A stretch of DNA of 46,358 bases. Source: Micromonospora globispora. Lineage in GTDB: Bacteria > Actinomycetota > Actinomycetes > Mycobacteriales > Micromonosporaceae. The notes beneath the pieces were generated by a model. That model searched no databases and was not told where the DNA came from. It saw only the letters and a program-made list of their open reading frames with translations. The stretch spans positions 1-46,358 of the forward strand of contig NZ_QGGF01000060.1 of NCBI RefSeq assembly GCF_003857015.1, in the 5' to 3' direction. Positions within the stretch are counted from its first letter, which is position 1. Each line of letters opens with the position of its first letter. The position numbers and the translations under genes are program-made. Of the stretch, positions 5,437 through 24,975 are shown piece by piece.

Positions 5437-5534
5437 TCTCACTCGTCCTGGACGTGCTCAAACACTGCACGTAACGAATTGGGGGGAGCGATTGAGGTCG
5501 GGGCATGTCGGCCTGTGCTTCGGCTGATGGTTGG

Positions 5535-6499: not shown

Positions 6500-6560
6500 A
6501 ATTCGCCTCGTCCGTTCGGTTCTTGGAGTGGCTACCGGTGAAGCCGGTGTTTTCCGGCCG

Positions 6561-6995
6561 CTACCGGTTGCGGGCCATCCAAGGGAACGGGGCAAGGTCG
6601 GGCTCGACCCAGCTGGTTCGGGCCTGGGCACTGGCCAGCGTCGCGGAGCGGTAGAAACGGGTGAGCAGGCGCTTGTCGAGCAGCGCGGGATTCCGTTCGG
6701 CGAAGGCCGCGAAATCCTGCAGCTCGTGCTCGGCCGCATGGTGGGCCACCAGCTCCACCCAGGCCTGGCTGACGGTGGAGTGGTATTTCTGGGGCACTCC
6801 CGCGTAGCGGGCGGTGCGCTGGATACCGTCGCTGACCAGGGCTATGGCCGCGGGCATGCCGACACGGCGCACCGCCAGCCAGGTCAGGTGGACGTGCTCG
6901 CGGTGGCCGAAGGTGCCGGCGGATGCCGTCACCTCGGCCATCAGCTCATCGAAGACGCAGGTGTCCCGGGGTGCCCCGGATTCGGTTGGGGTCAT
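6561..6995 (-). CDS. Conserved hypothetical protein co-transcribed with a MarR regulator
   Basis: The 144-residue product has the central motif GHREHVHLTWLAVRRVG followed by GIQRTARYAGVPQKYHSTVS, AWVELVAHH and a C-terminal LLTRFYRSATLASAQARTSW. The conserved-looking His, Glu, Tyr and Trp pattern is that of a small all-helical protein seen as a stand-alone ORF in actinobacteria; I know no assigned function. It has no signal peptide or membrane helix, so it is cytosolic. Its ATG (6995) overlaps the TGA of the MarR gene by 4 bases, which implies translational coupling. It may be the detoxifying or sensing partner of that regulator. Confidence 0.75.
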   Translation of the reverse strand: MTPTESGAPRDTCVFDELMAEVTASAGTFGHREHVHLTWLAVRRVGMPAAIALVSDGIQRTARYAGVPQKYHSTVSQAWVELVAHHAAEHELQDFAAFAERNPALLDKRLLTRFYRSATLASAQARTSWVEPDLAPFPWMARNR

Positions 6996-8980: not shown

Positions 8981-9503
8981 CACCCGTGGGGTGCCGGCCG
9001 GGCTGTTGATGCCAAGGGCACCTTCAGCGGTGACCGACCGGGCGTTGTGCTGATGCGGAGAGTGCCTTGATGGCCGGCCGGCGCGGACCCCGGGGTGTCG
9101 GGTTTCACGCCGGCCGGTATCCGCCACTCGGTGGTGTCCGGCCCTCAGCGGATGATGAGGCCCACGCGCACGCGAACGATCTGACGTCTCCCGCCCTCCT
9201 GGGGAGCGAGCCGGCAGCGGCCCACCACGTCGACCGAGCATTGACACAGGTTCGGGCGCGGGTGGGCCCGCCGGTGACCTGCTCGGCCCGTCGCCAGCCA
9301 GCCGCAGGCGAGACGGCGTTCCCGGGGCACACCCGTTTTCACGTTGCGTGACATCGATCTCGGGCTGCTCGGCGTGTGGGCATACCTGGTCTTTGACATG
9401 AGCGGCAACGCCCAACATCACCACCAGCGGACGCCGTAAATACATGAAGGAGTGACAGAACTCCACAATCCGGCCCGCTGCACCTAGCCTACACATCGAG
9501 GCC
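8981..9503. other. 523-bp intergenic region without a supportable gene
   Basis: Open frames on both strands lack family-like sequence and starts with ribosome sites. The region holds the imperfect inverted repeat listed separately, and a short hairpin (GGAGT-N6-ACTCC near 9450). The right 150 bases are less GC-rich and probably contain the promoter of the recombinase. No tRNA-like attachment site was recognised. Confidence 0.5.
9011..9074. repeat. Imperfect inverted repeat, MITE-like or hairpin
   Basis: The arm GCCAAGGGCAC (9011-9021) is mirrored by GTGCCTTGATGGC (9062-9074), with one gap and a few mismatches, around a 40-base GC-rich core. It follows the YibE/F gene by about 30 bases. It could be a transcript-end hairpin or the relic of a small non-autonomous element. 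There is no T-run. Confidence 0.35.
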
Positions 9504-9537
9504 ATGACGGACAGGCGTACCGATCGTGGAGGTCCTA

Positions 9538-11055
9538 TGGCGACGCGGGCGAACACAATCCCCGGACAGGCCACTCTCGCGTCGTGGGCTGTCCAGCAGC
9601 GCAAGGTCCGGCCGCAGCGGTTCATTCCGCTGGCGGATGGGCTGCGGTTCGCGTTCTACGGGCGGATGTCCACGGTCGACTTTCAGGATCGGGCGTCGTC
9701 GTGCCTTTGGCAGCGCGACTACGCCGAGGACCTTGTCGCCGGCCATGGTCGGATCGTGGTCGAGTTCTTCGACGAGGGTGTCTCCCGTCGGGTTGCCTGG
9801 CCGGACCGGCCGCAAGCGTCACGGCTGCTCGCCGCCGTGGCGGACCCAGCACGCGGGTTCGACGCGATCGTCGTCGGCGAGTACGAACGCGCTTTCCACG
9901 GCCAGCAGCTCGAACAGCTGACCCCCACCCTCGTCAAGCACGGCGTGCAGCTGTGGCTGCCCGAGACCTACGGGCCGGTGGACTTCGACAACCCCCGACA
10001 GGTGGCGCTGCTGGACCTGCTGGGCGTGCACTCCCAGCGGGAGGTGTCCCGGGCGCGGCATCGCACCACCGCGGCCATGCGCGCCCAAGCCGAGCTGCAG
10101 GGTCGACATCTCGGCGGCCGGCCGCCCTACGGCTACCGACTCGTCGACGCCGGCCCTCATCCGAACCGCGCCCACGCCGCCTGGGGACGACGCCTGCACC
10201 GCTTGGAACCCGACCCGGCGACCGCACCGCACGTGAGGTGGATCTTCGCCCAACGGCTCGCCGGCTGCAGCGTGGCCAGCATCGCCCGCGATCTCAACGA
10301 CTACGGCGTGCCGTGTCCGTCCGGCGCCGACCCGGGACGTAACCGTCACCGCAGCGGCCAAGGCTGGATGCTCACCACCGTCGCGGCGATCCTGGCCAAC
10401 CCCCGCTACACCGGCCGCCAGGTGTGGAACCGCCAACGCACCGACCAGGACGACGTCGAGCCGGACGGCACCATCGCGCGGCACCGCGAGGTCCAGCGCG
10501 CGAACGCCGCCCCGCAATGGATCATCTCCCGCCAGATCGCCCACCCACCGCTGGTCAGCGAGGAGCAGTTCATCGCGGCCCAGGCCATCCACACCGCGCC
10601 CACCCCCGCGGACGGCCCTCCTCGCCACTATCTCCTGGCCGGACTGGTCTGCTGTGGCGTCTGCGGCCGGATCATGGACTCCCACTGGGTCCATGGCCGT
10701 CCCGGTTACCGCTGCCGCCACGGCTACACGAGCAGCCGCACCAATGCCTCTCCCCGACCGAAGATCCTCTACATCCGGGAAGATCACCTGCTGGACCGCA
10801 TCCGCCACGACAGCGGGCTCCACCGCCACCACTCCGCGCTGCGCAGCCCCGACCTGGAGAACGTCACCGCCTACCTGCGAAACGAACAACATGATCATCG
10901 TGTGCGACCACCACACCTGGACCTGCGAATCCGACACCGCGATCTACACGCTCACCCCTGCGGGGAGCTTCCTCGCCACCACAGCGAAAATCCCCGCCCA
11001 ACGGGACGGAGACCAGGCAAAACACGAAGAACCATCACGCTTCGCGTGGAAATAA
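9538..11055 (+). CDS. Large serine recombinase (resolvase/invertase family), frameshift near the 3' end
   Basis: Start ATG 9538 follows GGAGG; ATG 9504 is an in-frame alternative. The resolvase domain contains FAFYGRMSTVDFQDR, placing the nucleophilic Ser at residue 45, then EFFDEGVSRRVAWPDRPQ, VGEYERAFHG and LLGVHSQREVSRARHRTTAA. A recombinase domain follows (GRHLGGRPPYGYRLVDAG, VRWIFAQRLAGCSVASIARD, LANPRYTGRQVWNRQ) and a zinc ribbon (GLVCCGVCGRIMDS, GYRCRHGYTS). Around 10878-10886 the coherent frame shifts by one base: MIIVCDHHTWTCESDTAIYT continues to TAA 11053-11055, whereas the original frame runs on as low-complexity sequence to 11264. Such enzymes integrate phages and ICEs, but no att site or cargo is obvious. 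Alternatively the tail is a separate small ORF. Confidence 0.75.
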
Positions 11056-11176
11056 CGTGTCCGAGACGCGAACACCAGTTCCAAGCACACCTGCTGGAAA
11101 TAGGTATGCATGCGTTGAAGGTAGCCACTGTGGACTGCGTGAGCAACTCCTCGAAAGCGATCGGAGGAGGGCGGTT

Positions 11177-11447
11177 GCGGGATCCTTCGTCATCCTCGAC
11201 TTCCCACCCGGCAACGGCGGTCGTGCCGTCCCCGAGCCCTCCGTCGCCTACAGCGAGTCCCTGACCGGCGCGCTCTACCTCGATAAGCCGCGCCCAAGGC
11301 GGCTGCCAGTTCGGCCATGGTCACGCCGCGTGGGAGGAACTGGCGGCCTACGACAAGGTGTGGCAGGGGCACAGTGCGCTCGCGCTCGATGAGGGACAAT
11401 CAAGGCGCATGATCAAAGCAATCTTGAGCGAGGCACAGCATGACTGA
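11177..11447 (+). pseudogene. DUF5753 (Scr1-type) regulator, C-terminal remnant with a 48-bp insert
   Basis: The frame reads AGSFVILDFPPGNGGRAVPE then PSVAYSESLTGALYLDKP, which is typical of the DUF5753 domain of XRE-type regulators. Then 48 bases of iclR-like DNA intervene (11287-11334). After it, the expected continuation ELAAYDKVWQGHSALALDEG and QSRRMIKAILSEAQHD resumes in a different frame to TGA 11445-11447. The N-terminal XRE helix-turn-helix is missing altogether. The stop overlaps the ATG of the DUF397 gene (ATGACTGA), the usual arrangement for Scr1-type regulator and DUF397 pairs. Confidence 0.8.
11287..11334 (+). repeat. 48-bp copy of iclR coding sequence inside the DUF5753 remnant
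   Basis: Positions 11287-11334 match 12415-12462 in the same orientation at 45 of 48 bases. In the iclR gene this stretch encodes, on the minus strand, SPRGVTLAELAAALGAA, part of the DNA-binding helices. In the DUF5753 gene it interrupts the LDKP/ELAAY junction and shifts the frame. The copies are about 1.1 kb apart. Confidence 0.85.
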
Positions 11448-11786: not shown

Positions 11787-12527
11787 TCAGCGCGGTTGAG
11801 GGCCGTATCGGGGGCCGAGAGTGGCAACTGCCTTCTTGAGCTCCTCGCCGACATTGTCGAGGCTATCCGGTTTTGCGGGGTCGACGGCTGCACTTATCGC
11901 CGCAATCAAACTGCCATCGCCTGCCAACAGGGGCGTGGCCACGACAAACGCGTCTGCGAACGTGACTCCGCGGTTAAAGGCGAGTCGGCGGGAGCGGATC
12001 TCGGGGAGCTCGGCGAGGAATTGCCGGACCTCGCCTGCCTGCTCCGGACTAGCCAGGTCGAGGAGGCGGTACATCTCGTCGTCGGGGACGTTGGCGAGCA
12101 GGATCTTTCCGGCAGCGCTCGTGTAGAGCGGGCGACGGGCGTGGGTGCGCGCGACGAACGTCAGGCTGGGTGACTCTTCACCCGCACGGTCAGTGAAGAC
12201 GATGGCGTCCCCGACGCGCACTCCGACGAGGATGGTGCAACCGAGGACCTTGCCCAGCTCGGCCACGAACTGGTGATCGAGTGACAGCGCGGCCAGCTTG
12301 TTCGCGCGCGAGGCGAGGATGAACGGCCCCGGTCCGAGGTGGAACCGGTGCTCCTCCTCGATGAGATAGCCGCGGGCGAGAAGTCCGTTGGTCAGCTCCT
12401 GCACGGAGCTCTTCGCCGCGCCCAGGGCGGCTGCCAGTTCGGCCAAGGTCACGCCCCGTGGGCTCAAGGACACGGTCTCGAGAATTTCGATCACTCGGTC
12501 GACAGTGCGATGCGGGCGGGCAGGCAT
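11787..12527 (-). CDS. IclR-family transcriptional regulator of the adjacent catabolic cluster
   Basis: The 246-residue protein has the N-terminal IclR winged helix (RTVDRVIEILETVSLSPRGV, TLAELAAALGAAKSSVQELT, NGLLARGYLIEEEHRFHLGP) and the C-terminal GAF-like effector domain (about 70-240) with LGCTILVGVRVGDAIVFTDR, RPLYTSAAGKILLA, GVTFADAFVVATPLLAGDGS and IAAISAAVDP. It is transcribed away from the cupin gene, 130 bases apart. A CGTACGTAT...ATACGTACG operator lies over the cupin promoter, which is the most likely target. IclR proteins typically sense aromatic or organic acids. One microfragment of this gene (or a close relative) is duplicated at 11287-11334. Confidence 0.88.
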   Translation of the reverse strand: MPARPHRTVDRVIEILETVSLSPRGVTLAELAAALGAAKSSVQELTNGLLARGYLIEEEHRFHLGPGPFILASRANKLAALSLDHQFVAELGKVLGCTILVGVRVGDAIVFTDRAGEESPSLTFVARTHARRPLYTSAAGKILLANVPDDEMYRLLDLASPEQAGEVRQFLAELPEIRSRRLAFNRGVTFADAFVVATPLLAGDGSLIAAISAAVDPAKPDSLDNVGEELKKAVATLGPRYGPQPR

Positions 12528-12569
12528 GCGGCTGACGCTAGCACCCCCTCCGAATGGTCCCGAGGGGTC

Positions 12570-12633
12570 TTGTCAAGTGGCGTGGGTCACGCTAGCGTAC
12601 GTATACACGGTTTCCAGTACGTAAATACGTACG
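12570..12633 (+). promoter_or_regulatory. Promoter of the cupin cluster with an IclR operator palindrome
   Basis: TTGTCA (12570-12575) and TAGCGT (12593-12598) are 17 bases apart, a good housekeeping-sigma promoter. A perfect 9-bp inverted repeat, CGTACGTAT (12596-12604) and ATACGTACG (12625-12633), spans the -10 and start point. Binding there would repress the cupin gene. The element ACGTAAATAC at 12619-12628 recurs upstream of the second cupin gene at 14857-14866. Confidence 0.6.
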
Positions 12634-12657
12634 ACCTCCACCCGAAAGGCTGGAAAC

Positions 12658-13212
12658 ATGACCGCAACACTGTCCCCCACGACGCTCACTACCCTCAGCG
12701 GCGTCCCCCTGCCGCTGGTCGCTCTGCCGCAGGGTGAGCTGCTGACCGTCAACATCGACCAGATCCCGCTGCTCAAGGACGCTATCGCCCCGGGCGTTCA
12801 CATCCAGCCGCTGCGTCTGGACCCCGAGCGCGGCGAGTGGGTCGTCCTGGGCATCCTGGCGCCCGGGGCCGAGCTGCCACTGCACTACCACACCGGTCCG
12901 GTTCAGGTGTGGACGATCCAGGGCCGCTGGGTGTACCGCGAATACCCCGACCAGCCGCAGGTGGCGGGCTCCTACCTGTACGAGCCCGGCGGCTCGGTGC
13001 ACACCTTCTACTGCCCCGAGGACAACACCGAGGACACCATTGCCCTGGCCTGGATCGTGGGCGCGGCAATCAACTTCAACGAGGACGGAACCTTCCACTC
13101 GATCATGGACGCGGTTTCCGCGCAGCACCGGACCGAGACCGTGTCGGCCGTGCAGGGCACCGGTCCCGTCCCCTACATCCGCGGCGCCGCTAACGGTGTG
13201 AACAAGTCCTGA
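12658..13212 (+). CDS. Cupin dioxygenase, 2,4'-dihydroxyacetophenone dioxygenase-like (copy 1)
   Basis: The 184-residue single-domain cupin starts at ATG 12658. The family core LPLVALPQGELLTVNIDQIP, GVHIQPLRLDPERGEWVVLG, LPLHYHTGPVQVWTIQGRW and PGGSVHTFYCPEDNTEDTI is intact. Candidate iron ligands are His77, His79, Glu95 and His115. Members of this family cleave a C-C bond next to a carbonyl with O2 (2,4'-dihydroxyacetophenone to 4-hydroxybenzoate and formate; related cupins cleave beta-diketones). The actual substrate is unknown. It is the first gene after the IclR-controlled promoter and is almost identical to the copy at 14887, so the two arose by duplication. The protein is cytosolic. Confidence 0.8.
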   Translation: MTATLSPTTLTTLSGVPLPLVALPQGELLTVNIDQIPLLKDAIAPGVHIQPLRLDPERGEWVVLGILAPGAELPLHYHTGPVQVWTIQGRWVYREYPDQPQVAGSYLYEPGGSVHTFYCPEDNTEDTIALAWIVGAAINFNEDGTFHSIMDAVSAQHRTETVSAVQGTGPVPYIRGAANGVNKS

Positions 13213-13217
13213 TTGGA

Positions 13218-13245
13218 AACGGCGAGCAGCCATGGCACCGCCGTT
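13218..13245 (+). terminator. Hairpin after cupin copy 1
   Basis: AACGGCG (13218-13224) pairs with CGCCGTT (13239-13245) across a 14-base loop, starting 5 bases after the cupin stop codon. There is no T-run, so it may act as an attenuator or an mRNA stabiliser between the cupin and the transporter gene. Confidence 0.4.
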
Positions 13246-13360
13246 GACCGGCCGCCAATCGCTGCAGCGCGGCACCGGCCGCAACCACAGATCCCGGCGA
13301 TGCCGCGCACCGCCGTACCGGTCACCATCCACCTTCGCTTTCCCAAACACGAGGTGTCGC

Positions 13361-14725
13361 ATGAGTACCCAGCAAGCCATCGCCACCCAGCCCACCCGTG
13401 CCCGCAGGATCGCGTTCGCGGCGACGGCCGCCGCGTCGATCGAGTGGTACGACTTTTTCATCTACGCCACGGCCGCGGCGCTGGTGCTCGGCCCGCTGTT
13501 CTTCCCGGGGGCCAGCCCAGCGGCCGCCGTGCTCGCGTCGTTCGCGACGTTCGGGGTCGGCTTCGTCGCCCGGCCGATCGGCGGGGTCATCTTCGGGCAC
13601 TTCGGCGACAAGGTCGGCCGCAAACCGATGCTGGCGATCGCCCTGGGGCTGATGGCGGTGGCCACCACGCTGATCGGGCTGCTGCCGTCCTACGACACCA
13701 TCGGTGTGCTCGCCCCGATCGCTCTGGTCGTGCTGCGGATCTGCCAGGGCGTGTCGGTCGGCGGCCAGTGGGCCGGGGCGATGCTACTCGCCACCGAGTC
13801 CGCGCCGCCGGGCAAACGCGGGCTGTACGGCAGCCTCGTGCAGATCGGCGTCCCAATCGGCATGATCCTCGGCAACGCCGTCTTCCTCGTCCTCGCCGCG
13901 GTCCTCTCCGACGAGCAGTTCATGGACTGGGGCTGGCGGGTGCCGTTCCTGCTCAGCGCGGTGTTCGTCCCGTTCGCCTTCTACATCCACCACCGGATCG
14001 ACGACACCCCGGAGTTCAAGCACGCGGAGGAGAAGCTGGCCTCGCAACCGCTGGCGCAGCGCCGCTCCCCGATCCTGGACGTGCTGCGCCAGCACCCGAA
14101 GGCGGTGCTGCTGGCAACGAGCGTCTTCTTGGTCATCGGCGTCGCCTTCTACATGCTCATCGCCGGCCTGCTCGACTACGGCACCCGGGCCCTCGGAATT
14201 TCGAAAGGCTCGATGCTCGCCGCGGTTCTCATCAGCGTCGGGGCCATGGCCGCGTTTCTGCCGCTGTTCGCCGGCCTGTCCGACCGCGTCGGCCGGAAAC
14301 CGGTGTATGCCGCCGGTGCGGTGGTCACGGGCGTCTGGGTCTTCGCGATGTTCCCGCTGGTGGAGACCGGCAACCAGGGGCTGATCATCCTGGCGCTGCT
14401 TGTCGCCATGCTCGGGCTCGCCATGATGTACGGCCCGCAGGCGGCGCTGTTCTCCGAGATGTTTCCCGCCCACCTGCGCTACTCCGGCGCCTCGCTCGGC
14501 GCCCAGATCGCCAACGCGATCGGCGCCGGATTCGCCCCCTTCATCATGGTGTTGCTGCTGGAATGGACCGGTAGCTCGCTGTCGGTGGCCGTCTACATCG
14601 CCGCGCTGGCCGGCCTCGCGCTGATCTCGCTGGCCTTCATCACCGTCACCCCCGAGAAGGTGCGCGAAGATGCCGGAGCCGCGCCGGGCCTCGTAGTTGC
14701 CGCCGGTGTCGACCCCGAGGACTGA
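13361..14725 (+). CDS. MFS transporter, metabolite:H+ symporter (MHS/ShiA-type)
   Basis: The 454-residue product starts at ATG 13361 with GAGGTG upstream. It has 12 predicted membrane helices. Family signatures are AAASIEWYDFFIYATAAALV in helix 1, GHFGDKVGRKPMLAIALGLM in the 2-3 loop, RICQGVSVGGQWAGAMLLAT, a cytosolic loop with HHRIDDTPEFKHAEEK, and the second-half loop FAGLSDRVGRKPVYAAGAVV. MHS-family proteins import organic acids (shikimate, alpha-ketoglutarate, proline, citrate) with protons. Position between two cupin genes under an IclR regulator implies uptake of the pathway substrate. The gene seems intact. Confidence 0.85.
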   Translation: MSTQQAIATQPTRARRIAFAATAAASIEWYDFFIYATAAALVLGPLFFPGASPAAAVLASFATFGVGFVARPIGGVIFGHFGDKVGRKPMLAIALGLMAVATTLIGLLPSYDTIGVLAPIALVVLRICQGVSVGGQWAGAMLLATESAPPGKRGLYGSLVQIGVPIGMILGNAVFLVLAAVLSDEQFMDWGWRVPFLLSAVFVPFAFYIHHRIDDTPEFKHAEEKLASQPLAQRRSPILDVLRQHPKAVLLATSVFLVIGVAFYMLIAGLLDYGTRALGISKGSMLAAVLISVGAMAAFLPLFAGLSDRVGRKPVYAAGAVVTGVWVFAMFPLVETGNQGLIILALLVAMLGLAMMYGPQAALFSEMFPAHLRYSGASLGAQIANAIGAGFAPFIMVLLLEWTGSSLSVAVYIAALAGLALISLAFITVTPEKVREDAGAAPGLVVAAGVDPED

Positions 14726-14736
14726 AGACAACCACC

Positions 14737-14862
14737 GTGCGGACCCCGGCGGAGCTGCTCGACCTCGTCGGCAACCCGATGGGTCAGCCTGGCTCACACG
14801 CCATCACCCAGCATCAGCTGAACCTCTTCGCCGACGCCACACATGACCACCAGTGCACGTAA
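14737..14862 (+). pseudogene. MaoC-like hydratase, N-terminal remnant
   Basis: GTG 14737 opens a 41-codon frame, VRTPAELLDLVGNPMGQPGS then HAITQHQLNLFADATHDHQC, ending at TAA 14860-14862. This matches the start of single-domain MaoC dehydratases up to the catalytic-site DHQ(W)IH motif and then breaks off. The break coincides with ACGTAAATAC, a sequence also present in the leader of cupin copy 1. The gene was most likely cut when the second cupin, with part of its leader, was copied here. Confidence 0.65.
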
Positions 14863-14886
14863 ATACAACAACAGGAGGACCGACCC

Positions 14887-15438
14887 ATGACTTCAACACT
14901 CTCTCCCGGGGTGGCCATCACCGGCACCGGCGCCCCGCTGCCGCTGGTCGCCCTGCCGCAGGGCGAGCTGCTGACAGTCAACATCGACCAGATCCCGATG
15001 CTCAAGGACCTGGTCGGCCCTGGCATTCACATCCAGCCGCTGCGCCTGGACCTCGAGCGGGGCGAGTGGGTCTTCCTGGCCACCCTGGCGCCCGGTTGCG
15101 AGCTGCCGCTGCATTACCACACCGGTCCGGCTCAGGTGTGGACGATCCAGGGCCGCTGGCTGTACCGCGAGTACCCCGACCAGCCGCAGGTGGCGGGCTC
15201 CTACCTGTACGAGCCCGGCGGCTCGACGCACACGTTCTACTGCCCGGAGGACAACACCGAGGACACCATCGCCCTGGCCTGGATCGAGGGCGCGCAGGTG
15301 AGCTTCAACGAGGACGGCACCTTCCACTCGGTCATGGACGCGGTCGCCCTCCAGTACCTGATCCAGACCGCGGCGGCGGAGCAGGGCCTCACGGTCCCCT
15401 ACATCGACGGCGGCGTCAACGCAGTCAACAACGCCTGA
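14887..15438 (+). CDS. Cupin dioxygenase, 2,4'-dihydroxyacetophenone dioxygenase-like (copy 2)
   Basis: The 183-residue product starts at ATG 14887 after AGGAGG. It aligns without gaps to copy 1 over residues 17-150, and about four in five residues are identical. The candidate ligands His77, His79, Glu95 and His115 are kept. Differences cluster in the N-terminal 15 residues, at 41-48 (DLVGPG versus DAIAPG), at IEGAQVSFNEDGTFHSVMDA and in the C-terminal 35 residues. Retention of the metal site and reading frame suggests both copies are active, possibly on different substrates or as hetero-oligomers. The leader shares ACGTAAATAC with copy 1 but lacks the IclR palindrome and promoter, so expression probably comes from readthrough. 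Confidence 0.8.
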   Translation: MTSTLSPGVAITGTGAPLPLVALPQGELLTVNIDQIPMLKDLVGPGIHIQPLRLDLERGEWVFLATLAPGCELPLHYHTGPAQVWTIQGRWLYREYPDQPQVAGSYLYEPGGSTHTFYCPEDNTEDTIALAWIEGAQVSFNEDGTFHSVMDAVALQYLIQTAAAEQGLTVPYIDGGVNAVNNA

Positions 15439-15455
15439 TCCGAAGGTCCCGAGGT

Positions 15456-15483
15456 TCCCCCGGCGAGAGGTCTTACCGGGGGA
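15456..15483 (+). terminator. GC-rich hairpin between cupin copy 2 and the CoA-transferase gene
   Basis: TCCCCCGG (15456-15463) pairs perfectly with CCGGGGGA (15476-15483) across a 12-base loop. No T-run follows. It lies 18 bases after the cupin stop and about 40 bases before the next gene, so it may lower readthrough into the CoA-dependent half of the cluster. Confidence 0.5.
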
Positions 15484-15525
15484 GGCTCGCCCCTCAGCAA
15501 ACAGATCGAAAGAGGAGAAGCGATT

Positions 15526-16725
15526 ATGCCGGCCTTTGACGGCGTCCGGGTCCTCGAACTGGGTCAGATCTACAACGGCCCCTATTGCGGGCTCCTGCTC
15601 GCACAACTGGGCGCCGATGTCATCAAGGTCGAGCCACCCGGCGGTGAGCCGTTGCGCTTCCGCTCGCACGAGCCGATCGAGTCCCACGAGTTCGTGATGC
15701 TCAACTCCAACAAGCGCAGTGTGGTGCTCGACCTGAAGACCGACGCCGGTCGCCAGGCGCTGCTCGACCTGGTCGAGACCGCAGACGTACTCATCGAGAA
15801 CTACGCGCCGGGCACGATGGAGCGCCTCCAGCTCGGCCCGGCGCGTCTCCTCGAGCACAACCCGCGTCTGATCGTGGCCTCGGGCAAGGGCTACGGGTCC
15901 ACCGGCCCCTACGCGCACATGTCGGCCATGGACATCACGGTGCAGGCGATGTCCGGCAGCGCCTCGGCCACCGGGGACCCCGACGGGCCACCGACCAAGG
16001 CCGGCACCACGTTCGTGGACTTCTCCGGCGGCATCCACCTGTTCGGGGCGATCAGTGCGGCCCTGTTCCAGCGCGAACGCACGGGACGGGGACAGATCGT
16101 CGAGGTCTCGATGCACGACACCGTCTACCCGATGCTGGCGTCGAGCCTGGGAGGCCTCCACAACCACCCCGACCGACAGTTGCCCGAGCGTACCGGGAAC
16201 CGGCATGCGGGCATGGCGGTCGCGCCGTACAACCTCTACGAGACGAGCGACGGATGGCTCGCGATCATCTGCATCTCGGAGCGGCACTGGCGCGGCGTGG
16301 CAACCGCGCTGGGTCGGCCTGAGCTGATCGACGACCCCAGGTTCCGCGCGGCGAAGGACCGGGTCGCCAACATCGATGCGCTCGACGAGGAGGTGTCTTC
16401 CCGCACGAGGACCCGGACGCGCGCCGAGCTGGTAGGCGACCTGCAGGCCGCGGGTGTGCCCTGCGCGCCGGTCAAGACCATCCGTGAGGTTGACACGGAC
16501 GAGCACCTGATCCAGCGCGGCATGATCCAGTACGTCGAGCACGCGGCCAGGGGGCGGGTGCCGGTCCCCGGATGTCCGCTGAGGCTCAGCGACTCGCCGG
16601 TCGGACCGCATTGGGCCGCCCCGCCGCTGGGCCAGTCGACGGAGGAGATCCTCGCGGAGCTCACCGGCATTGCGGCCGACACCCACATCAATGGTGAGGA
16701 GTCCCAGCATGTCCTTCGTGCCTGA
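15526..16725 (+). CDS. Class III CoA-transferase (CaiB/BaiF family)
   Basis: The 399-residue protein starts at ATG 15526 after AGAGGAG. It has the family N-terminus GVRVLELGQIYNGPYCGLLL, the segment LGADVIKVEPPGGEPLR, the NKRSVVLDLKTDAGRQALLD block, ENYAPGTMERLQLG and PRLIVASGKGYGSTGPYA. The expected nucleophilic Asp is Asp165 in TTFVDFSGGIHLFGAISAAL. The C-terminal RAELVGDLQAAGVPCAPVKT motif is also present. These enzymes move CoA between an acyl-CoA and a free acid, here probably activating the acid made by the cupins or taken up by the MFS protein. The last 17 bases overlap the next gene. Confidence 0.88.
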   Translation: MPAFDGVRVLELGQIYNGPYCGLLLAQLGADVIKVEPPGGEPLRFRSHEPIESHEFVMLNSNKRSVVLDLKTDAGRQALLDLVETADVLIENYAPGTMERLQLGPARLLEHNPRLIVASGKGYGSTGPYAHMSAMDITVQAMSGSASATGDPDGPPTKAGTTFVDFSGGIHLFGAISAALFQRERTGRGQIVEVSMHDTVYPMLASSLGGLHNHPDRQLPERTGNRHAGMAVAPYNLYETSDGWLAIICISERHWRGVATALGRPELIDDPRFRAAKDRVANIDALDEEVSSRTRTRTRAELVGDLQAAGVPCAPVKTIREVDTDEHLIQRGMIQYVEHAARGRVPVPGCPLRLSDSPVGPHWAAPPLGQSTEEILAELTGIAADTHINGEESQHVLRA

Positions 16726-17257
16726 GCCCGACACTGCATTGGCGGCGTATTACGCCCAGACACAGCCGCGGGTCGGAGCCGTCCTCGCGCGGCGCAGCCT
16801 GGGCACGCTGGACGCGGTGACCATCGGCCGCTACGCAGTGACCATCGGCGCCGCCGATCCGATCCACTACGACCCGGCGGCCGCACGGTCTGCCGGGTAC
16901 GCCGATGTCGTGGCGCCACCGAACATGCTCGCCGCGATCGTGGAGTGGGGGATCGGCACCCCAGAAGCCCAGCTCCAGCCCGACGGAACTCCCCATGACG
17001 GTGAGATGCCCCTTGGTGACGGCGACCTCAGGCTGCGCGTGATGGGCGCCGGCGAAGAGATGGAGCTGGTCAGTCCCGTGATCGCCGGCACGGAGCTGGT
17101 GCTCGAGACGACCCTCGAGGCGGTCACTCCCAAACAGACCCGCTCTGGCACCTGCGTGTTCGTCACCACCAGCCACACCTTCATGTCCGCTGAGGGTGCC
17201 GTCCTCAACCGCAACCGGCGCACTGTAGTACTGCGCAACCCCGTGCAGGAGTCCTGA
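16709..17257 (+). CDS. MaoC/FAS1-like hot-dog dehydratase, N-terminal-type subunit
   Basis: ATG 16709 follows GAGGAG and lies inside the end of the CoA-transferase gene. The 182-residue product matches the MaoC_dehydrat_N (FAS1-like) domain: IGRYAVTIGAADPIHYDPAA, SAGYADVVAPPNMLAAIVEW, LRVMGAGEEMELVSPVIAG and SGTCVFVTTSHTFMSAEGAV. The motif DPIHYD resembles the hydratase-2 active-site region. It overlaps the next gene by one base (TGATG). The pair corresponds to the two halves of double hot-dog enzymes such as mesaconyl-C4-CoA hydratase, here as separate chains. It probably hydrates an enoyl-CoA made by the acyl-CoA dehydrogenase. Confidence 0.82.
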   Translation: MSFVPEPDTALAAYYAQTQPRVGAVLARRSLGTLDAVTIGRYAVTIGAADPIHYDPAAARSAGYADVVAPPNMLAAIVEWGIGTPEAQLQPDGTPHDGEMPLGDGDLRLRVMGAGEEMELVSPVIAGTELVLETTLEAVTPKQTRSGTCVFVTTSHTFMSAEGAVLNRNRRTVVLRNPVQES

Positions 17258-17703
17258 TGTCCATCACCTTCCAGGTCGGAGACGTGCTTCCACGGCTCAG
17301 GCACACGGTCACGGCCCTTCAGTTGTTCCGCTACAGCGCGGTCACCTGGAACCCGCACCGCATCCACTTCGACGCACGCTACGCACGCGAGGAGGGTCAC
17401 CCCGGTCTCGCGCTGCACTCCCACCTCCGGGCAGCGCTCGCGCTACGCTGCGTCACCGAGGGCCTCGGTCCGCAGTGGCACGTCACAAAATTCGACTACC
17501 GACTGCGAAAGCCCGTCTACGCGCCGGCCGAGCTGGCCTACGCCGCCCGGGTTACGGAGGCCGACGGCGACAGCATGACCCTAGAGCTGATCGAGGAGCA
17601 CCCCTCGGGCGGGGTGGGGTTCGAAGGGACGGTGCGGGTCAGCAAGACCGGGGCAGTGACCACTGAGGGATTTCCTGTGTCGACAGCGGGAGCGACAGCA
17701 TGA
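17257..17703 (+). CDS. MaoC-like hot-dog hydratase, C-terminal-type subunit
   Basis: The 148-residue product begins MSITFQVGDVLPRLRHTVTA and has the active-site-like segment FRYSAVTWNPHRIHFDARYA followed by REEGHPGLALHSHLRAALAL and the hot-dog strands WHVTKFDYRLRKPVYAPAEL. This is the C-terminal half of a double hot-dog hydratase; NPHRIHFD corresponds to the DxNPIHxD catalytic motif with Trp in the place of Asp. Start and stop overlap both neighbours (TGATG and ATGA), so all three genes are translationally coupled. The enzyme most likely works as a heterodimer with the preceding product. Confidence 0.82.
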   Translation: MSITFQVGDVLPRLRHTVTALQLFRYSAVTWNPHRIHFDARYAREEGHPGLALHSHLRAALALRCVTEGLGPQWHVTKFDYRLRKPVYAPAELAYAARVTEADGDSMTLELIEEHPSGGVGFEGTVRVSKTGAVTTEGFPVSTAGATA

Positions 17704-19496
17704 CGTCGGCATCAGGACGGGGGCAGCGTCCCATCCGCGTCGGGAACTGCTCCGGCTTCTACGGTGACCGGGCTTCGGCCATGGCCGACATGGCCGAAGC
17801 CGGCGGCATTGACGTCCTCACCGGTGACTACCTCGCCGAGGTCACCATGCTGATCCTCGGGAAGGCGCGCGCCAAGGACAGCACCAAGGGCTATGCGGCC
17901 ACCTTCCTGCAGCACCTCGACGCGGCGCTCGAGCACCTCGTCGCGAACGGCATCCGGCTCGTCGTCAACGCCGGAGGACTCAACCCCGCCGGGCTGGCCG
18001 CAGCAACCCGCGAACTGATCGCCCGCCACGGTCACGACCTGCGGGTCTCCCACATCGACGGCGACGACGTCTTCGGCTGCCTCGACGCTCTGCGGCAAGC
18101 GGGCTGTTCACTGCCGCACCTGACGAGCGGCGAGCCGTTGTCGTCCTGGCCGCACCAGCCCCTGACGGCCAACGCCTACCTGGGCGGATTCGGCATCGCG
18201 CGCGCCCTCGACAACGGCGCCGACATCGTCATCACCGGCCGCGTCGCCGACGCCTCACTGGTCGTCGGTCCCGCCGCCTGGTGGTGGAATTGGACCCCCC
18301 ATGACTACGACGCCCTCGCCGGCGCGGTCTGCGCCGGACACGTCATCGAATGCGGACCACAGGCCACCGGCGGCAACTTCTCCGGGTTCCGTACCATCGC
18401 CGACCTCGTGCAGCCCGGCTTCCCGATCGCCGAAATCGCCGCTGACGGCTCCTCAGCGATCACCAAGAACCCAGGCACCGGCGGCGCCGTCACCCAGGAC
18501 ACGGTCACCGCTCAACTGCTCTACGAAATCGGTGAACCCGCCTACCTCAACCCCGACGTGGCCACCCACCTGGACACCGCCACGCTGACCGACCTCGGCG
18601 ACGACCGCGTCGAGATCCGCGGCGTGCGAGGAACGGCGCCACCCGCGACGACCAAGGTCGCGATCACCGGGGTGGGGGGATGGGCGAACAGCCTGATCCT
18701 CGCGCTCACGGGCCCGGACCTCGACGCCAAGGCCGCCCTCGTCGAACAATCCGTCAACCACCATGCCCAGTCCGTTGACGGGCTCGACGCGGTCGCGATC
18801 GACCGTATCGGGCAGGCCAGGCACGATCCCGATAGTCAGAATGCGGGAACCGAGTTGCTCAGGATCACCGTGCAGGGGACGGAGCGGGCCGCCGGGCGCG
18901 CCTTCTCGTCGCGGATGGTCGAGCTGGCCCTGTCCAGCTATCCCGGGTTGTACTCCCTCGGCCCGCCCCAACCAGGGTCGGCATTTGGTGTCTACTGGCC
19001 TGCACTGCTCGACCAGGCGATGCTCGAACACGTGGTCCACCACCATGACGGCAGGACCGAGATCGTCGCACCCGGCAACCCACCCGGCGCCGGGGGCGAG
19101 GTGACCCCGCAGCCCGAGCCGTCGCCCGCGCAACCGGTGCGAGCGCCATGGACTGACGAACTGGTCGTCGTTCCACTCGGTGAGATCGTGCATGCCCGCT
19201 CTGGCGACAAGGGCGGCGACGCGAATCTCGGCGTCTGGGTACGCGACCGGGAAGCATGGGAGTGGCTCAGGTCGACCCTCACCGTCGACGAACTCCGGCG
19301 TCTCCTACCCGAAACACGCGAACTGGCGATCTCGCGCTACGAACTGCCCAACCTCGGCGCGGTCAACTTCGTTCTCCGAGGACTGCTCGGGACCGGCGCC
19401 ACCTCCACCCTGCGGCTGGACGCGCAGGCGAAGGCACTCGGCGAATGGCTGCGCTCACGCAGCACCAAGGTGCCGCGATCTCTTGTCAAGACGTAG
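17700..19496 (+). CDS. AtuA-family (DUF1446) protein with C-terminal AtuA-like domain
   Basis: The 598-residue protein has the DUF1446 core (about 12-450): IRVGNCSGFYGDRASAMADM, GGIDVLTGDYLAEVTMLILG, GIRLVVNAGGLNPAGLAAAT, NAYLGGFGIARALDNGADIV, ITGRVADASLVVGPAAWWWN, VIECGPQATGGNFSGF and YLNPDVATHLDT. After a Pro-rich linker comes the AtuA-like ferredoxin-fold domain: VPLGEIVHARSGDKGGDANL through YELPNLGAVNFVLRGLLGTG. AtuA belongs to the acyclic terpene utilisation cluster of Pseudomonas, and its chemistry is not settled. Here it is found without geranyl-CoA carboxylase genes, so terpene use should not be assumed. The start overlaps the previous stop by 4 bases. Confidence 0.85.
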   Translation: MTSASGRGQRPIRVGNCSGFYGDRASAMADMAEAGGIDVLTGDYLAEVTMLILGKARAKDSTKGYAATFLQHLDAALEHLVANGIRLVVNAGGLNPAGLAAATRELIARHGHDLRVSHIDGDDVFGCLDALRQAGCSLPHLTSGEPLSSWPHQPLTANAYLGGFGIARALDNGADIVITGRVADASLVVGPAAWWWNWTPHDYDALAGAVCAGHVIECGPQATGGNFSGFRTIADLVQPGFPIAEIAADGSSAITKNPGTGGAVTQDTVTAQLLYEIGEPAYLNPDVATHLDTATLTDLGDDRVEIRGVRGTAPPATTKVAITGVGGWANSLILALTGPDLDAKAALVEQSVNHHAQSVDGLDAVAIDRIGQARHDPDSQNAGTELLRITVQGTERAAGRAFSSRMVELALSSYPGLYSLGPPQPGSAFGVYWPALLDQAMLEHVVHHHDGRTEIVAPGNPPGAGGEVTPQPEPSPAQPVRAPWTDELVVVPLGEIVHARSGDKGGDANLGVWVRDREAWEWLRSTLTVDELRRLLPETRELAISRYELPNLGAVNFVLRGLLGTGATSTLRLDAQAKALGEWLRSRSTKVPRSLVKT

Positions 19497-19511
19497 CCCA
19501 GCAAGCCAACA

Positions 19512-19531
19512 GCGCCGCCCGGCAGCGGCGC
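19512..19531 (+). terminator. Hairpin after the AtuA gene
   Basis: GCGCCGC (19512-19518) pairs perfectly with GCGGCGC (19525-19531) around a 6-base loop, 15 bases after the AtuA stop codon. No T-run follows. The acyl-CoA dehydrogenase gene begins 115 bases downstream, so this may partly uncouple it from the operon. Confidence 0.5.
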
Positions 19532-19646
19532 GGCTTCGTACGCACCGATGTCAGCGCGAAGCCGCGCCGTCCGGGCCCGGCACCTCGGGTCGCCCGGGGC
19601 ATGTGCTCGACCGCATCCCCATCCACTGATGAGCAGGAGAGCACCG

Positions 19647-20810
19647 ATGAGCGACCCCGACGAGAGCAACATCGACGTCGTCCGCTGGGCCACCCGAGAG
19701 TTGGCCCGCAAGTTCGACTACGGGTACTGGCGGGAGAAGGACAAGCTGGGCGAGTACCCGTGGGAGTTCGTCAGGGCGTTCGCCCAGGGCGGGTGGCTCG
19801 GAGCGCTCATCCCCGAGGAGTACGGCGGCCTCGGGCTCCGCCTCGCGGAGTGTGGCGTGATGATGCAGGAGATCGCCGCCTCGGGTGCCGGCGCGAGTGG
19901 CGCTTCGGCGATCCACTTCTACCTGTTCCCACCCGCCCCGATCATCCGCTACGGCTCGGAGGAGATGAAGCAGGAGTTCCTGCCCAAGCTCGCCCGGGGC
20001 GAGATCCTCATGGCGTTCGGCGTCACCGAGCCGACCGCCGGTGTGGACACCTCCCGCATCACCACGAAGGCCGAGAAGGTCGACGGTGGCTGGGTCGTCA
20101 ACGGCCAGAAGGTCTGGATCACCAACGCGCAGAACGCCCACAAGATCCTGCTGCTGGCGCGCACGTCTGTCCGCAACGAGGAGAAGCCGTTGGACGGGAT
20201 GACGCTCTTCTTCACCGACCTGGACCGCGACCGGATCACGGTCCGGGAGATCGAGAAGCTGGGCCGGTCGGCGGTCGACTCCAACGAGCTCTTCATCGAC
20301 GACCTGGAGGTCCGTGACGACGAAGTCGTGGGTGAGGTGGGCCAGGGCTTCAGGTACCTCATCGACGGGCTGAACTCCGAGCGCATCGTCGTTGGCCTGG
20401 AGGGTGTAGGCCTCGGTCAGGCGGCACTTGAGCTGGCGACGAAGTACGCCAACGAGCGGGTGGTCTTCGACCGGCCCATCGGTCAGAACCAGGCGGTCGC
20501 CCACCCGCTGGCGGACTCGTGGATCCGCCTGGAATCCGCTCGGCTGATGGCCATGCACGCGGCCAAGCTCTACGACGACCACGAGAACTGTGGCAAGGAG
20601 GCCGCCGCGGCGAAGTATCTGGGCGCCGAAGCCGGCTTCGATGCCTGCGACCGGGCCATGTCCACGCACGGTGGCTACGCCTACGCGAAGGACTACCACG
20701 TGGAGCGGCTCTGGCGGGAGGCACGGCTGCTCCGCAACGCGCCGTTCTCGCAGGAGATGGTCCTCAACTACATCTCCACCCAGGCGCTGAGGCTGCCCCG
20801 CGCGTACTGA
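19647..20810 (+). CDS. Acyl-CoA dehydrogenase
   Basis: The 387-residue protein starts at ATG 19647 after AGGAGAG. Domains follow the ACAD order: helical N-terminus with GALIPEEYGGLGLRLAECGV, FAD-binding beta domain with LMAFGVTEPTAGVDTSRITT and VVNGQKVWITNAQNAHKILL, and the C-terminal helical domain with GQGFRYLIDGLNSERIVVGL, KYANERVVFDRPIGQNQAVA and STHGGYAYAKDYHVERLWRE. At the medium-chain ACAD catalytic Glu position there is Pro (LLRNAPFSQEM). Glu245 in NSER sits where isovaleryl-CoA and long-chain dehydrogenases carry their base, so a branched or bulky acyl-CoA is likely. It would supply the enoyl-CoA for the hot-dog hydratase. Electron acceptor genes (ETF) are not nearby. Confidence 0.88.
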   Translation: MSDPDESNIDVVRWATRELARKFDYGYWREKDKLGEYPWEFVRAFAQGGWLGALIPEEYGGLGLRLAECGVMMQEIAASGAGASGASAIHFYLFPPAPIIRYGSEEMKQEFLPKLARGEILMAFGVTEPTAGVDTSRITTKAEKVDGGWVVNGQKVWITNAQNAHKILLLARTSVRNEEKPLDGMTLFFTDLDRDRITVREIEKLGRSAVDSNELFIDDLEVRDDEVVGEVGQGFRYLIDGLNSERIVVGLEGVGLGQAALELATKYANERVVFDRPIGQNQAVAHPLADSWIRLESARLMAMHAAKLYDDHENCGKEAAAAKYLGAEAGFDACDRAMSTHGGYAYAKDYHVERLWREARLLRNAPFSQEMVLNYISTQALRLPRAY

Positions 20811-21027: not shown

Positions 21028-21840
21028 CGGGTTGCGTTGTCGGATCGGCGGACGTGTTGAACCCGGGTCGGGTCCGCGGTCAGATCGCTTGGGCGAGTTC
21101 GGTGAGCGCCGCGGCGACCCGCAAAGCGGGCGGGGCGTCGATGGCGAGGTCGTAGTGGCCGCGGCGCAGGTTTTGCATGAACGCGTGTCCGGCGATGATC
21201 ACCTGCGCAGTCTTGTCCGTTCGTAGCCCGCGCATCGGTTTCAAACGGTGTTTCAACTGGCTGTGATCGGCTTCGATCGGATTGTTCGCGTACCGCTCGA
21301 CGTGGTGCCACGCGGACGGGACCAACTGGTCGAGCACGGCGGGGTAGACCGGCGCTGCGTCGGTGACCACCTCGCCGGGTGTCACCTTCAACGTCGACAG
21401 CACTCGTCGGAAGAACCGCCGGGCCGCGCCGGCGTCACGGCGGGCCGAGACCAGCACGTCGATGACCTGCCCGTACTGGTCGACCGCCCGGTACACGTAC
21501 CGCCACACCCCGTTCACCTTGACGTACGTTTCATCAACGAACCACCTGTCGCCTGGTGAGTGCCGGCAGAACCGAGCGGCGTCGGCCAGCAGCGGCGTGA
21601 ACCGCTGCACCCAGCGGTAGACGGTGACGTGATCGACCTCGACGCCACGTTCGAGCAGCGGTTCTTCAACGTCGCGATAGGACAGGCCGTAGCGGCCAGC
21701 GGACGCGACCACGATCACCTCCGGCGGGAACCGGAACCCGGCGAAAGCCGACCTCGGAGGCAGCCACGAGTCAGGTCGGGTCGACGCCTTCACTGCTCAA
21801 GTCTGCCTCGATCTTGCCGACGCTCAACGCAACAGAGCCC
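21028..21840 (-). mobile_element. IS6-family insertion sequence
   Basis: The transposase is intact and the right end reads, inward on the minus strand, GGGCTCTGTTGCGTTGAGCG (from 21840). This is the common IS6/IS26-like terminal repeat. The left end (about 21028-21049) has the related GGGTTGCGTTGTCGGATCGG, with the first bases diverged, so the exact left boundary is uncertain. No 8-bp target duplication was recognised. It separates the acyl-CoA cluster from the sugar ABC genes. Confidence 0.7.
21080..21793 (-). CDS. IS6-family transposase
   Basis: The 237-residue protein starts at GTG 21793. It has the N-terminal FRFPPEVIVVASAGRYGLSY and HTH-like SYRDVEEPLLERGVEVDHVT, followed by the DDE domain: first Asp in DRWFVDETYVKVNGVWRYVY, second Asp in GEVVTDAAPVYPAVLDQL, and Glu in YANNPIEADHSQLKHRLKPM. 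All three acidic residues are present, and the length is normal for IS6 (about 235), so it is probably active. IS6 elements move by replicative transposition and form cointegrates, which can drag neighbouring genes. Confidence 0.92.
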   Translation of the reverse strand: MKASTRPDSWLPPRSAFAGFRFPPEVIVVASAGRYGLSYRDVEEPLLERGVEVDHVTVYRWVQRFTPLLADAARFCRHSPGDRWFVDETYVKVNGVWRYVYRAVDQYGQVIDVLVSARRDAGAARRFFRRVLSTLKVTPGEVVTDAAPVYPAVLDQLVPSAWHHVERYANNPIEADHSQLKHRLKPMRGLRTDKTAQVIIAGHAFMQNLRRGHYDLAIDAPPALRVAAALTELAQAI

Positions 21841-23613: not shown

Positions 23614-24975
23614 TCAGCCGTTGGATGCGGAGAAGTCGCCGTAGTCCTTCTGCAACGAGTCCAGGAACTGCTCCGGCGTCTTCTTCTTGGCCAGCAGATC
23701 CTGCAGCGAGGCGGTGACGCTGTCATACATCGTCGGCGTCGCGTAGTCCAGGTACGGCACGAGCCCGTCCGTCTTGACGATGTCTCCGAAGGCGGTGAAG
23801 ACATCCTTCTGCAGCCCGCCGCCGACGTCCTGGCTCGATGTGTCGGCAACTGGCAGATTGCCGGTGCTGGTGAGCACCTTCATGGCCTGCTCGCTGGTGA
23901 TGAAGTTGATGTAGGCGGCGGCCGCGTCGGGGTGCTTGCTCTTGGCGGTGATGGCGAACGGCAGCCCGGTGCCACCGGTGGCCACCGGCTTGTCACCGGC
24001 GTTCGCCGCCGGCGGCAGCATGAACGCCACGTCGGAACCCATGGCCTTGGCGAGGTCGGCCTGCAGCCACGTCCCTCCGATGAGGAAGACGCCCTTGCCC
24101 TTGCTGAACGCCTGCCAGGCGGGGTCGTAGCCCGTTCCGTTGAAGCCTGGCTCGAAGTAGCCCTTGTCGACCCAGTCGACCAGTTCCTGGGCCGCTTTGA
24201 GATTGTCGGGAGTCTTCCACGACGCGCCCTTGCGGCCGAAGGCCAGCGTCTTGATGTCGTCGGGCGAGGTGGAGCGGCCCTGGATCGTGCCGAACACGTG
24301 GATCGCCGGCCACTTGTCGAGGTTGCCGAGCATCATCGGAACCTCGCCCCTGGCCTTGGCGGTAGCCATCGCGCTCTCGAAGTCGGACCAGCTCTTGGGT
24401 GGCTGGAGGCCGAACTTGGCGAGCTTCTTGGCGTTGTAGAAGATGCCGACCACCTCGCCCACCTGGGGTAGCCCGTAGAGGTTGCCCTCCCCGAAGGTCC
24501 TGCCGTCCGGGCTGTACGACGAGTACTGGCGCACCGACTCGGGGTATCTGCGGTCCCAGCCGTAGGCGGCGGCGTACGCGTTGAGCGGAAGCAACTGCCC
24601 GGCCTTGACGAACTCGCCCATGTCAGAGCGCCCGTTGTTGGCCTCTACGACGTCAGGGGCCTCGTTGCCGCTGAGCGCCAGCCGGAGGGTGGTCTTCAGG
24701 TCATCGAAGGAGCGGGACACGCGCTGGATCTTGATGTTGGGGTACTTGGCCTGAAAGTCCTTGTTGAGTTGCTCCATCTGCGCGGCCTGTCCACCGCGGA
24801 CCTCCTGGTCCCAGACGATCAGGGTGACGTTGCCCAACTTGGCCGCGTCGGTGGTCACCGCGGCGTTGGGCTTCGCCGACGGCGACGGGCTCGAGGATCC
24901 GGGGGCGCATGCGGTGACCGCGAGGACACCGATCGCGCTGGCCGCGATCAGGGTCCTTGACCTGAACGACTTCAT
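23614..24975 (-). CDS. Sugar-binding lipoprotein of a CUT1 ABC transporter
   Basis: The 453-residue protein has a lipoprotein signal peptide, MKSFRSRTLIAASAIGVLAV, with the lipobox VTAC (acylated Cys23). A Ser/Pro/Ala-rich spacer precedes the family 1 binding fold: VTLIVWDQEVRGGQAAQMEQ, PNIKIQRVSRSFDDLKTTLR, GNEAPDVVEANNGRSDMGEF, LYGLPQVGEVVGIFYNAKKL, GVFLIGGTWLQADLAKAMGS and AAAAYINFITSEQAMKVLT. ATG 24975 follows AGGAG and overlaps the kinase stop (ATGA). It captures the sugar outside the membrane for the two downstream permeases. The GH4 enzyme across the divergent promoter suggests a glycoside ligand. Confidence 0.92.
   Translation of the reverse strand: MKSFRSRTLIAASAIGVLAVTACAPGSSSPSPSAKPNAAVTTDAAKLGNVTLIVWDQEVRGGQAAQMEQLNKDFQAKYPNIKIQRVSRSFDDLKTTLRLALSGNEAPDVVEANNGRSDMGEFVKAGQLLPLNAYAAAYGWDRRYPESVRQYSSYSPDGRTFGEGNLYGLPQVGEVVGIFYNAKKLAKFGLQPPKSWSDFESAMATAKARGEVPMMLGNLDKWPAIHVFGTIQGRSTSPDDIKTLAFGRKGASWKTPDNLKAAQELVDWVDKGYFEPGFNGTGYDPAWQAFSKGKGVFLIGGTWLQADLAKAMGSDVAFMLPPAANAGDKPVATGGTGLPFAITAKSKHPDAAAAYINFITSEQAMKVLTSTGNLPVADTSSQDVGGGLQKDVFTAFGDIVKTDGLVPYLDYATPTMYDSVTASLQDLLAKKKTPEQFLDSLQKDYGDFSASNG

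Follow-up and report, generated by a model that had tools for sequence, protein, structure and literature searches.

A carboxylase-free AtuA gene cluster of Micromonospora globispora with a predicted role in the degradation of a branched dicarboxylic acid

In the anaerobic degradation of naphthalene, the lower thn operon encodes ThnP, ThnO/ThnT, ThnL or ThnHI, and ThnQS, as set out in the accessible parts of two studies (PMC12016498, PMC11659651). A cluster for itaconate and methylsuccinate (ict, ich, ccl, mcd) comprises a CoA-transferase, a hydratase and a lyase, with an acyl-CoA dehydrogenase (ACAD) added for methylsuccinate, according to the available portion of its description (PMC12290011). 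The AtuA family takes its name from the use of terpenes. Here we compare these systems with nine genes at positions 11787-20810 of contig NZ_QGGF01000060.1 (C783) from the 6.67 Mb genome of Micromonospora globispora; the whole analysed stretch of 46,358 nucleotides is referred to as the window. An initial annotation of this DNA held that the cluster fits no known pathway, but its four CoA-side functions match those that open the second ring of naphthalene under anaerobic conditions, and they also resemble the itaconate/methylsuccinate cluster. On balance, the genes probably form a carboxylase-free AtuA cluster that degrades a branched dicarboxylic acid via CoA transfer, hydration to a tertiary alcohol and C-C cleavage by AtuA. 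In the open literature searched, mostly at title level, we found no description of this cluster.

Gene content, linkage and two classes of AtuA loci

Every named gene of the cluster exceeds its Pfam family cut-off, in agreement with the gene list of the initial annotation. An IclR-family regulator (11787..12527, minus strand; IclR_C and HTH_IclR) is divergent from cup1 (12658..13212), a Cupin_7 cupin predicted to be a C-C cleaving dioxygenase, and all following genes lie with cup1 on the plus strand. They encode an MHS-type MFS importer predicted to act on an organic acid (13361..14725; MFS_1), which scores 402.5 bits against the metabolite/H+ symporter family TIGR00883, under the cut-off of 443.45; a second Cupin_7 cupin, cup2 (14887..15438); a family III (CaiB/Frc) CoA-transferase (15526..16725; CoA_transf_3, 417.4 bits); MaoC1 (16709..17257), of the FAS1_DH type, and MaoC2 (17257..17703), the two halves of a predicted heteromeric enoyl-CoA hydratase; AtuA with its AtuA_ferredoxin-like domain (17700..19496), a predicted C-C lyase; and an accessory ACAD (19647..20810). 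From the ATG starts that we chose, the CoA-transferase gene overlaps MaoC1 by 17 bases, MaoC1 overlaps MaoC2 by 1 and MaoC2 overlaps AtuA by 4, as the initial annotation had claimed in giving overlaps of 1-17 bases, and the remaining intergenic gaps measure 87-161 bases. For the MHS and ACAD genes, the starts at 13361 and 19647, chosen by the preceding bases, are likelier than those of the longest open reading frames. The arrangement is not due to chance, because the same order recurs in other genomes.

CoA-transferase, hydratase and AtuA genes accompany the cupin in all eight opened loci in which the cupin is at least 68% identical, namely the window, three Rhodococcus loci (L001, L002, L020), two likely Streptomyces loci (L073, L074) and plasmids of Microvirga (L025) and Cupriavidus (L026). 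Among cupins below 60% identity, AtuA was found in 0/11 opened loci and a CoA-transferase in 2/11, both identity cut-offs having been set after the values were known. The sample is not random, L001 and L002 having been found via AtuA and the remaining loci via the cupin, and L022 extends only about 2 kb past the cupin on one side. Neighbourhoods elsewhere, which the initial annotation had named as a test of its reading, do link the cupin to the CoA genes and leave that reading standing.

The Rhodococcus loci (R. opacus ATCC 51881, a Rhodococcus metagenome-assembled genome and genome G157, respectively) each contain IclR, one divergent cupin, CoA-transferase, MaoC1, MaoC2, AtuA and ACAD; the proteins from CoA-transferase to ACAD are 73.5-91% identical to those of the window and the cupin 68-69%. 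L073 and L074 are probably of the genus Streptomyces, since proteins of similar identity bear Streptomyces names. Both have IclR, cupin(s), CoA-transferase, MaoC1, MaoC2 and AtuA at 74-89%, and L073 shows the order cupin-SBF transporter-cupin where the window has cupin-MHS-cupin. The MHS gene found no match in these five loci. On the plasmids of Microvirga ossetica and Cupriavidus sp. KK10, a cupin of 68-75% identity is joined by a CoA-transferase, a crotonase-type hydratase and AtuA, the CoA-transferase and AtuA being only 35-37% identical to the window's. Both also have a GntR regulator and a TTT substrate-binding protein (annotated in L025, read by eye in the L026 translations). Also encoded there are a two-domain cupin and a protein resembling SMP-30/gluconolactonase, a hint that the path of the substrate may include a lactone; taken with the TTT protein, these neighbours give no decisive hint of the substrate. 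In C. necator N-1, a similar cupin and AtuA lie about 3.4 kb apart, judged by coordinates only. Among the close-cupin clusters, the MHS transporter and an adjoining ACAD are optional parts. The ACAD is not a constant component: none was found in L073, L074 or L026, and L025 has only a 28% identical copy about 5 kb away, behind other regulators.

From a wider perspective, AtuA loci may be partitioned into two classes by their neighbours. Our census covers all 105 AtuA matches at E 1e-60 (101 and 28 genomes searched), with L025, L026, L073 and L074 standing outside it; two carboxylase subunits of locus L003 and the CoA-transferases of the window and of Microvirga served as tblastn queries (E 1e-15), and a match was counted if its midpoint lay within 10 kb of the AtuA midpoint, the window stretch comprising 9 kb on each side. 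A carboxylase subunit is found within 10 kb at 80/105 loci and at none of the other 25, which include the window, where no acyl-CoA carboxylase lies within 9-10 kb of AtuA. The missing carboxylase, previously seen as a gap in the route, is instead the mark of one class of AtuA loci. Of the 25 carboxylase-free loci, 15 have a CoA-transferase nearby, versus 1 of the 80 carboxylase-linked ones. Without the window and its three orthologues the counts are 11/21 and 1/80 (Fisher 2.4e-8, a test that ignores relatedness and overstates independence, since many carboxylase-linked loci look like one orthologous cluster), and with the same omissions loci of at least 17 kb give 10/16 and 1/74; five carboxylase-free loci lie on stretches shorter than 15 kb. 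In a tree built from 48 AtuA sequences, 3 changes account for the carboxylase label, compared with a shuffled mean of 15.9 (0/500 as low), and the window AtuA falls within a carboxylase-free group of 11 (support 95/99). A second tree of 60 rows, without L003, gives 5 changes versus 20.0. At five of the carboxylase-free loci (L046, L059, L060, L061, L062), the ACAD shares 44-47% identity with that of the window; a CoA-transferase lies near three of these and an MHS gene near two.

Might the carboxylase simply be located elsewhere in the genome, so that the cluster serves a canonical Atu/Liu-type route? Contig C774 does hold a second AtuA together with CarbA and CarbB homologues (L024). However, that carboxylase is already paired with its own AtuA, the window AtuA groups with carboxylase-free proteins, and the Rhodococcus, Streptomyces-like, Microvirga and Cupriavidus copies are without a carboxylase in their opened stretches, all of which makes a distant carboxylase very unlikely.

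Predicted enzymes and the proposed route

The window AtuA is a clear member of its family, scoring 536.8 bits for PF07287 (cut-off 22.8) and 72.9 bits for PF23544 (cut-off 27). Among 7999 candidates scored, at least 6351 proteins match at E 1e-150 or better, and the closest besides the window's own is again from Micromonospora globispora (94%). The single AtuA sequence had no real match in the PDB (best E 0.083), while a fold search and a profile search led to 9EVF/9ERQ, the modelled fold matching that of 9EVF. These entries, listed as CmlA, citramalate lyase subunit A, are the solved proteins closest to AtuA in fold. The initial annotation regarded the chemistry of AtuA as unknown; an AtuA-family protein bearing the name citramalate lyase subunit A has a solved structure, and published papers, in their accessible parts, speak of AtuA or AtuA-like lyases. 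CmlA differs from the window AtuA in several respects: the two are 16-17% identical, the 456-residue CmlA chain aligns to model residues 8-451, and it offers no partner for the C-terminal domain. The protein is named for citramalate, and binding of ADP and pyruvate is listed for it in the available entry; among the papers listed on citramalate lyase or CmlA, none dealt with 9EVF. Rows 2-50 of the VIA-align comparison, which match mostly the 325-429 subdomain, were not used.

The CoA-transferase, which was aligned with YfdE, contains the motif FVDFSGG from residue 163 and within it D165, which we take to be the catalytic Asp position of family III enzymes. By name, its matches include enzymes for dicarboxylates (mesaconate, oxalate, succinate-hydroxymethylglutarate and benzylsuccinate), and it stays under the NCBIfam equivalog cut-offs for succinyl-CoA:mesaconate CoA-transferase (278/700 bits) and 2-methylfumaryl-CoA isomerase (77/725). 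MaoC1 matches residues 59-148 of the itaconyl-CoA hydratase 8KHG (E 1.2e-4) as well as ChsH1 (E 1.4e-6), and MaoC2 matches residues 172-251 of 8KHG (E 1.3e-13), so that the two proteins correspond to its N- and C-terminal halves. The ACAD carries the motif LNSERIVV from residue 242; the Glu245 noted by the initial annotation is indeed within it, at what is presumably the position of the IVD/LCAD-type base.

These matches also bear on a C5-type branched succinate (itaconate, mesaconate, methylsuccinate class) as the substrate, with AtuA acting as a citramalate or citramalyl-CoA lyase that yields pyruvate. The name of CmlA, the likeness of both MaoC halves to itaconyl-CoA hydratase and the composition of the itaconate/methylsuccinate cluster, as far as its source describes it, all speak for this option. 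We nevertheless find it rather unlikely, for AtuA and CmlA are of low identity, the CoA-transferase reaches no equivalog cut-off, and C5 acids would need no dioxygenase, which would leave a conserved cupin without a clear role.

How might the cluster promote degradation of a larger branched diacid? We envision that the MHS protein imports an organic-acid precursor, and that the three-His cupins, with oxygen, cleave a C-C bond beside a carbonyl to leave a branched diacid. The family III CoA-transferase might then charge one carboxylate from an endogenous acyl-CoA and, if the diacid arrives saturated, the ACAD, where present, would introduce an alpha,beta double bond; clusters without an ACAD might take an unsaturated diacid or borrow the enzyme. 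The MaoC1/MaoC2 pair would hydrate the product to a tertiary alcohol of the 3-hydroxy-3-R-glutaryl-CoA type, which ordinary beta-oxidation could not oxidise. AtuA might cleave this alcohol to release a small carboxylate, for example acetate, and a 3-oxoacyl-CoA, and a host thiolase would complete the route. For a ready-made diacid that receives CoA at one end, takes up water at the branch carbon and is then cleaved by AtuA, neither a carboxylase nor a ligase would be required, and a general thiolase would suffice. Each reaction, their order and the class of substrate are what we infer from the gene content, linkage, conservation, operator-like boxes and conserved residues observed, and from a modelled fold.

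The cupin step is the least certain of the route. We assign the making of the diacid to the cupin because it adjoins iclR and keeps the three His of 2,4'-dihydroxyacetophenone dioxygenase (DAD; PDB 4P9G, 5BPX): H76, H78 and H115 are invariant in 15/15 cupins and align with those of DAD, which predicts a three-His iron site. Yet the cupin profile matches DAD chains at only 41-42 bits, compared with 183 bits for 3CJX; the term 'DAD-like', used in the initial annotation, thus denotes a distant match. Alternatively, the cupin may be a metal-dependent isomerase, a hydrolase or a sensor of the same substrate, with the CoA part unchanged. The nearest solved relative, 3CJX, has no assigned function and DAD itself is distant, both of which would allow this, whereas the retention of all three His in every cupin aligned argues for a dioxygenase; we consider the alternative unlikely, though not far-fetched.

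Several points weigh against the branched-diacid reading, the relatedness of the census loci among them. No CoA-transferase is found at 10 of the 25 carboxylase-free loci, L043, L071, L090 and L142 lying on stretches shorter than 15 kb. Of the 105 loci, only the window and its orthologues, 4 in all, have a close cupin, and 11 of the 15 loci with a CoA-transferase are without one, which slightly lowers our confidence. The nearest tree row outside the orthologues, L033 (G128:C1), has AtuA (59%), CoA-transferase (69%), both MaoC halves (56% and 52%), ACAD (31%) and IclR (38%) and no cupin, implying that the CoA part can stand alone; its neighbours, a dipeptide-type ABC transporter, IlvD, a PrpD-family protein and PhaC, provide no decisive hint of the substrate. 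Three of four further proteobacterial AtuA plasmid loci have a carboxylase, and for the fourth (Tistrella) neither carboxylase nor CoA-transferase is annotated. A paired test on the tree, with 3 independent pairs, was without power, and we do not draw on it for support. An ACAD adjoining AtuA is missing in 4/8 close-cupin clusters. From the literature, ThnP is described, in the accessible part of its source, as an intramolecular family I transferase (PMC11659651), whereas the window enzyme belongs to family III, and the naphthalene precedent is therefore analogous and not homologous at the transferase step. Moreover, the lyase activity of ThnQS is stated as proven next to assays marked unpublished in the text available, and a paper cited in a review names LiuE, by its title, as the 3-hydroxy-3-methylglutaryl-CoA lyase of leucine and acyclic terpene catabolism.

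Operator-like boxes and assembly history

The iclR gene is divergent from and adjoins the cupin in L001, L002, L020, L073 and L074, at 83-87% identity. Within the iclR-cup1 junction of the window, the box TACGTAAATACG (12618..12629, plus strand), a putative IclR site, is the sole match of ..CG[TG]AAAT.CG, and a degenerate box with two mismatches, TACGTATACACG (12598..12609, plus strand), lies 20 bp from it. A second operator-like box, CACGTAAATACA (14856..14867, plus strand), precedes cup2. The core ACGTAAATAC is present at two positions of the 46 kb window, 12619 and 20 bp before cup2; two copies were seen in 0/100 shuffles, for a core picked post hoc. At least one ..CG[TG]AAAT.CG box is present between iclR and the cupin in all five scanned relatives having that junction, as a pair exactly 20 bp apart in L002, L020, L073 and L074 and singly in L001, with one further box far upstream in L073; no such box was found in L033. 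These patterns suggest that IclR binds the boxes.

Two cupins of 77% identity share the window. The first cupin of L073 is closer to cup2 (81%) and its second closer to cup1 (87.5%), so they look like old paralogues whose order is swapped between the two loci. We set aside joint inheritance of cupins and CoA genes from Rhodococcus, the former being 68-69% and the latter 73.5-91% identical. Outside its own genome, the cupin was found in none of the 150 relatives searched (1/151); it occurs in 2/396 genomes of a phylum sample (its own and G563), in 5/28 of the genus of G151 and in 7/392 of the genus of G201, a thin sampling in which G896 (genus of G201) was left out and the order and genus samples may overlap under two handles.

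Gene remnants record part of the cluster's history. Between the MHS gene and cup2 lies a fossil N-terminal fragment of an unrelated MaoC-type hydratase (14734..14853, plus strand) that ends in a stop and is 50% identical over 40 residues to a MaoC protein of L003 (E 7.5e-10, two fragments searched against four proteins). In L073, a 24-residue fossil of a CoA-transferase start (9154-9225, 75%) directly follows the first cupin, ahead of the SBF transporter and second cupin. The fossils suggest that the cupin and CoA-transferase genes were neighbours ancestrally and that, in each of the two lineages, a further cupin and a transporter of a different type came to be inserted next to this junction.

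Could the cupin-transporter genes and the CoA genes then be two unrelated units that merely adjoin? The MaoC fossil behind the MHS gene, which suggests an MHS insertion, the lower conservation of the cupins, the cupin-free L033 and the rarity of a close cupin among AtuA loci fit this notion. Yet cupin and CoA genes are linked in every close-cupin locus opened, including two whose CoA parts are non-orthologous, similar boxes precede cup1 and cup2, and the divergent iclR-cupin junction is conserved with its boxes. Two units thus appear highly improbable, and the earlier claim of one linked, IclR-adjacent, CoA-dependent gene set has held.

A serine recombinase (9504-11264) and an IS240/IS6-type transposase (21080-21793) flank the cluster, and two further transposases lie at 3454-6739; the cluster is real, conserved and mobile-looking. 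Of 31 genomes of the genus, only its own yielded the PfkB gene (24972-26156) that lies to the right (E 1e-60), which gives this flank an accessory look as well. A YibE/F-family protein (7943-8980) has an 89% copy in one other genus member (G009:C65) and a more distant copy (56-62%) in most, with matches in 29/31 genomes.

Comparison with described systems

As far as its sources describe it, the thn operon shares with the window a predicted order of events, in which a CoA-transferase would act on a branched diacid, followed by an ACAD, a hydratase forming a tertiary alcohol and an AtuA-like lyase releasing a 3-oxoacyl-CoA; ACAD, hydratase and AtuA-like lyase are found together in the window. 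The thn operon likewise holds a heteromeric MaoC pair (ThnHI), although ThnL is preferred there for hydration. Its lyase is composed of two proteins, whereas that of the window is one fused protein. In L062 (8617-10364, genus of G151), AtuA and the ferredoxin-like C-terminal part appear by eye as two overlapping open reading frames, resembling ThnQ/ThnS. The thn operon has its own thiolase, its organism is anaerobic, and the gene table seen names neither a cupin nor an MHS transporter.

Similarly, the itaconate/methylsuccinate cluster, in the portion of its description available, provides a CoA-transferase, hydratase, lyase and ACAD for branched diacids. Its lyase is an (S)-citramalyl-CoA lyase in place of AtuA, and none of the nine window proteins matches that family (E 0.001); its hydratase is one protein instead of two, and no cupin is named there. 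In the acyclic terpene utilisation pathway, an AtuA family member is likewise placed after a glutaconyl-CoA-type hydration. Its diacid is made by geranyl-CoA carboxylase, whereas the window and its opened relatives have a CoA-transferase and no carboxylase nearby, and carboxylase subunits beside AtuA were not found in the window.

Our general claim, of interest to specialists, is a class of AtuA loci fed by a CoA-transferase. If it is correct, 15 of the 105 loci, perhaps as many as 25, would point to branched diacids and not to terpenes, and the block that a tertiary alcohol imposes on beta-oxidation would have a general aerobic answer; the compact cluster would be a system for the reaction of AtuA together with the enzymes that make its substrate. 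We tentatively extend this to a broader and more doubtful proposal: AtuA lyases may have two entry routes, through a carboxylase or through a CoA-transferase acting on a ready-made branched diacid, and in some soil actinomycetes and Proteobacteria a cupin dioxygenase may feed the second by opening a cyclic or branched ketone. Such a pathway would be an aerobic counterpart, assembled independently, of the steps that open the second ring when naphthalene is degraded anaerobically.

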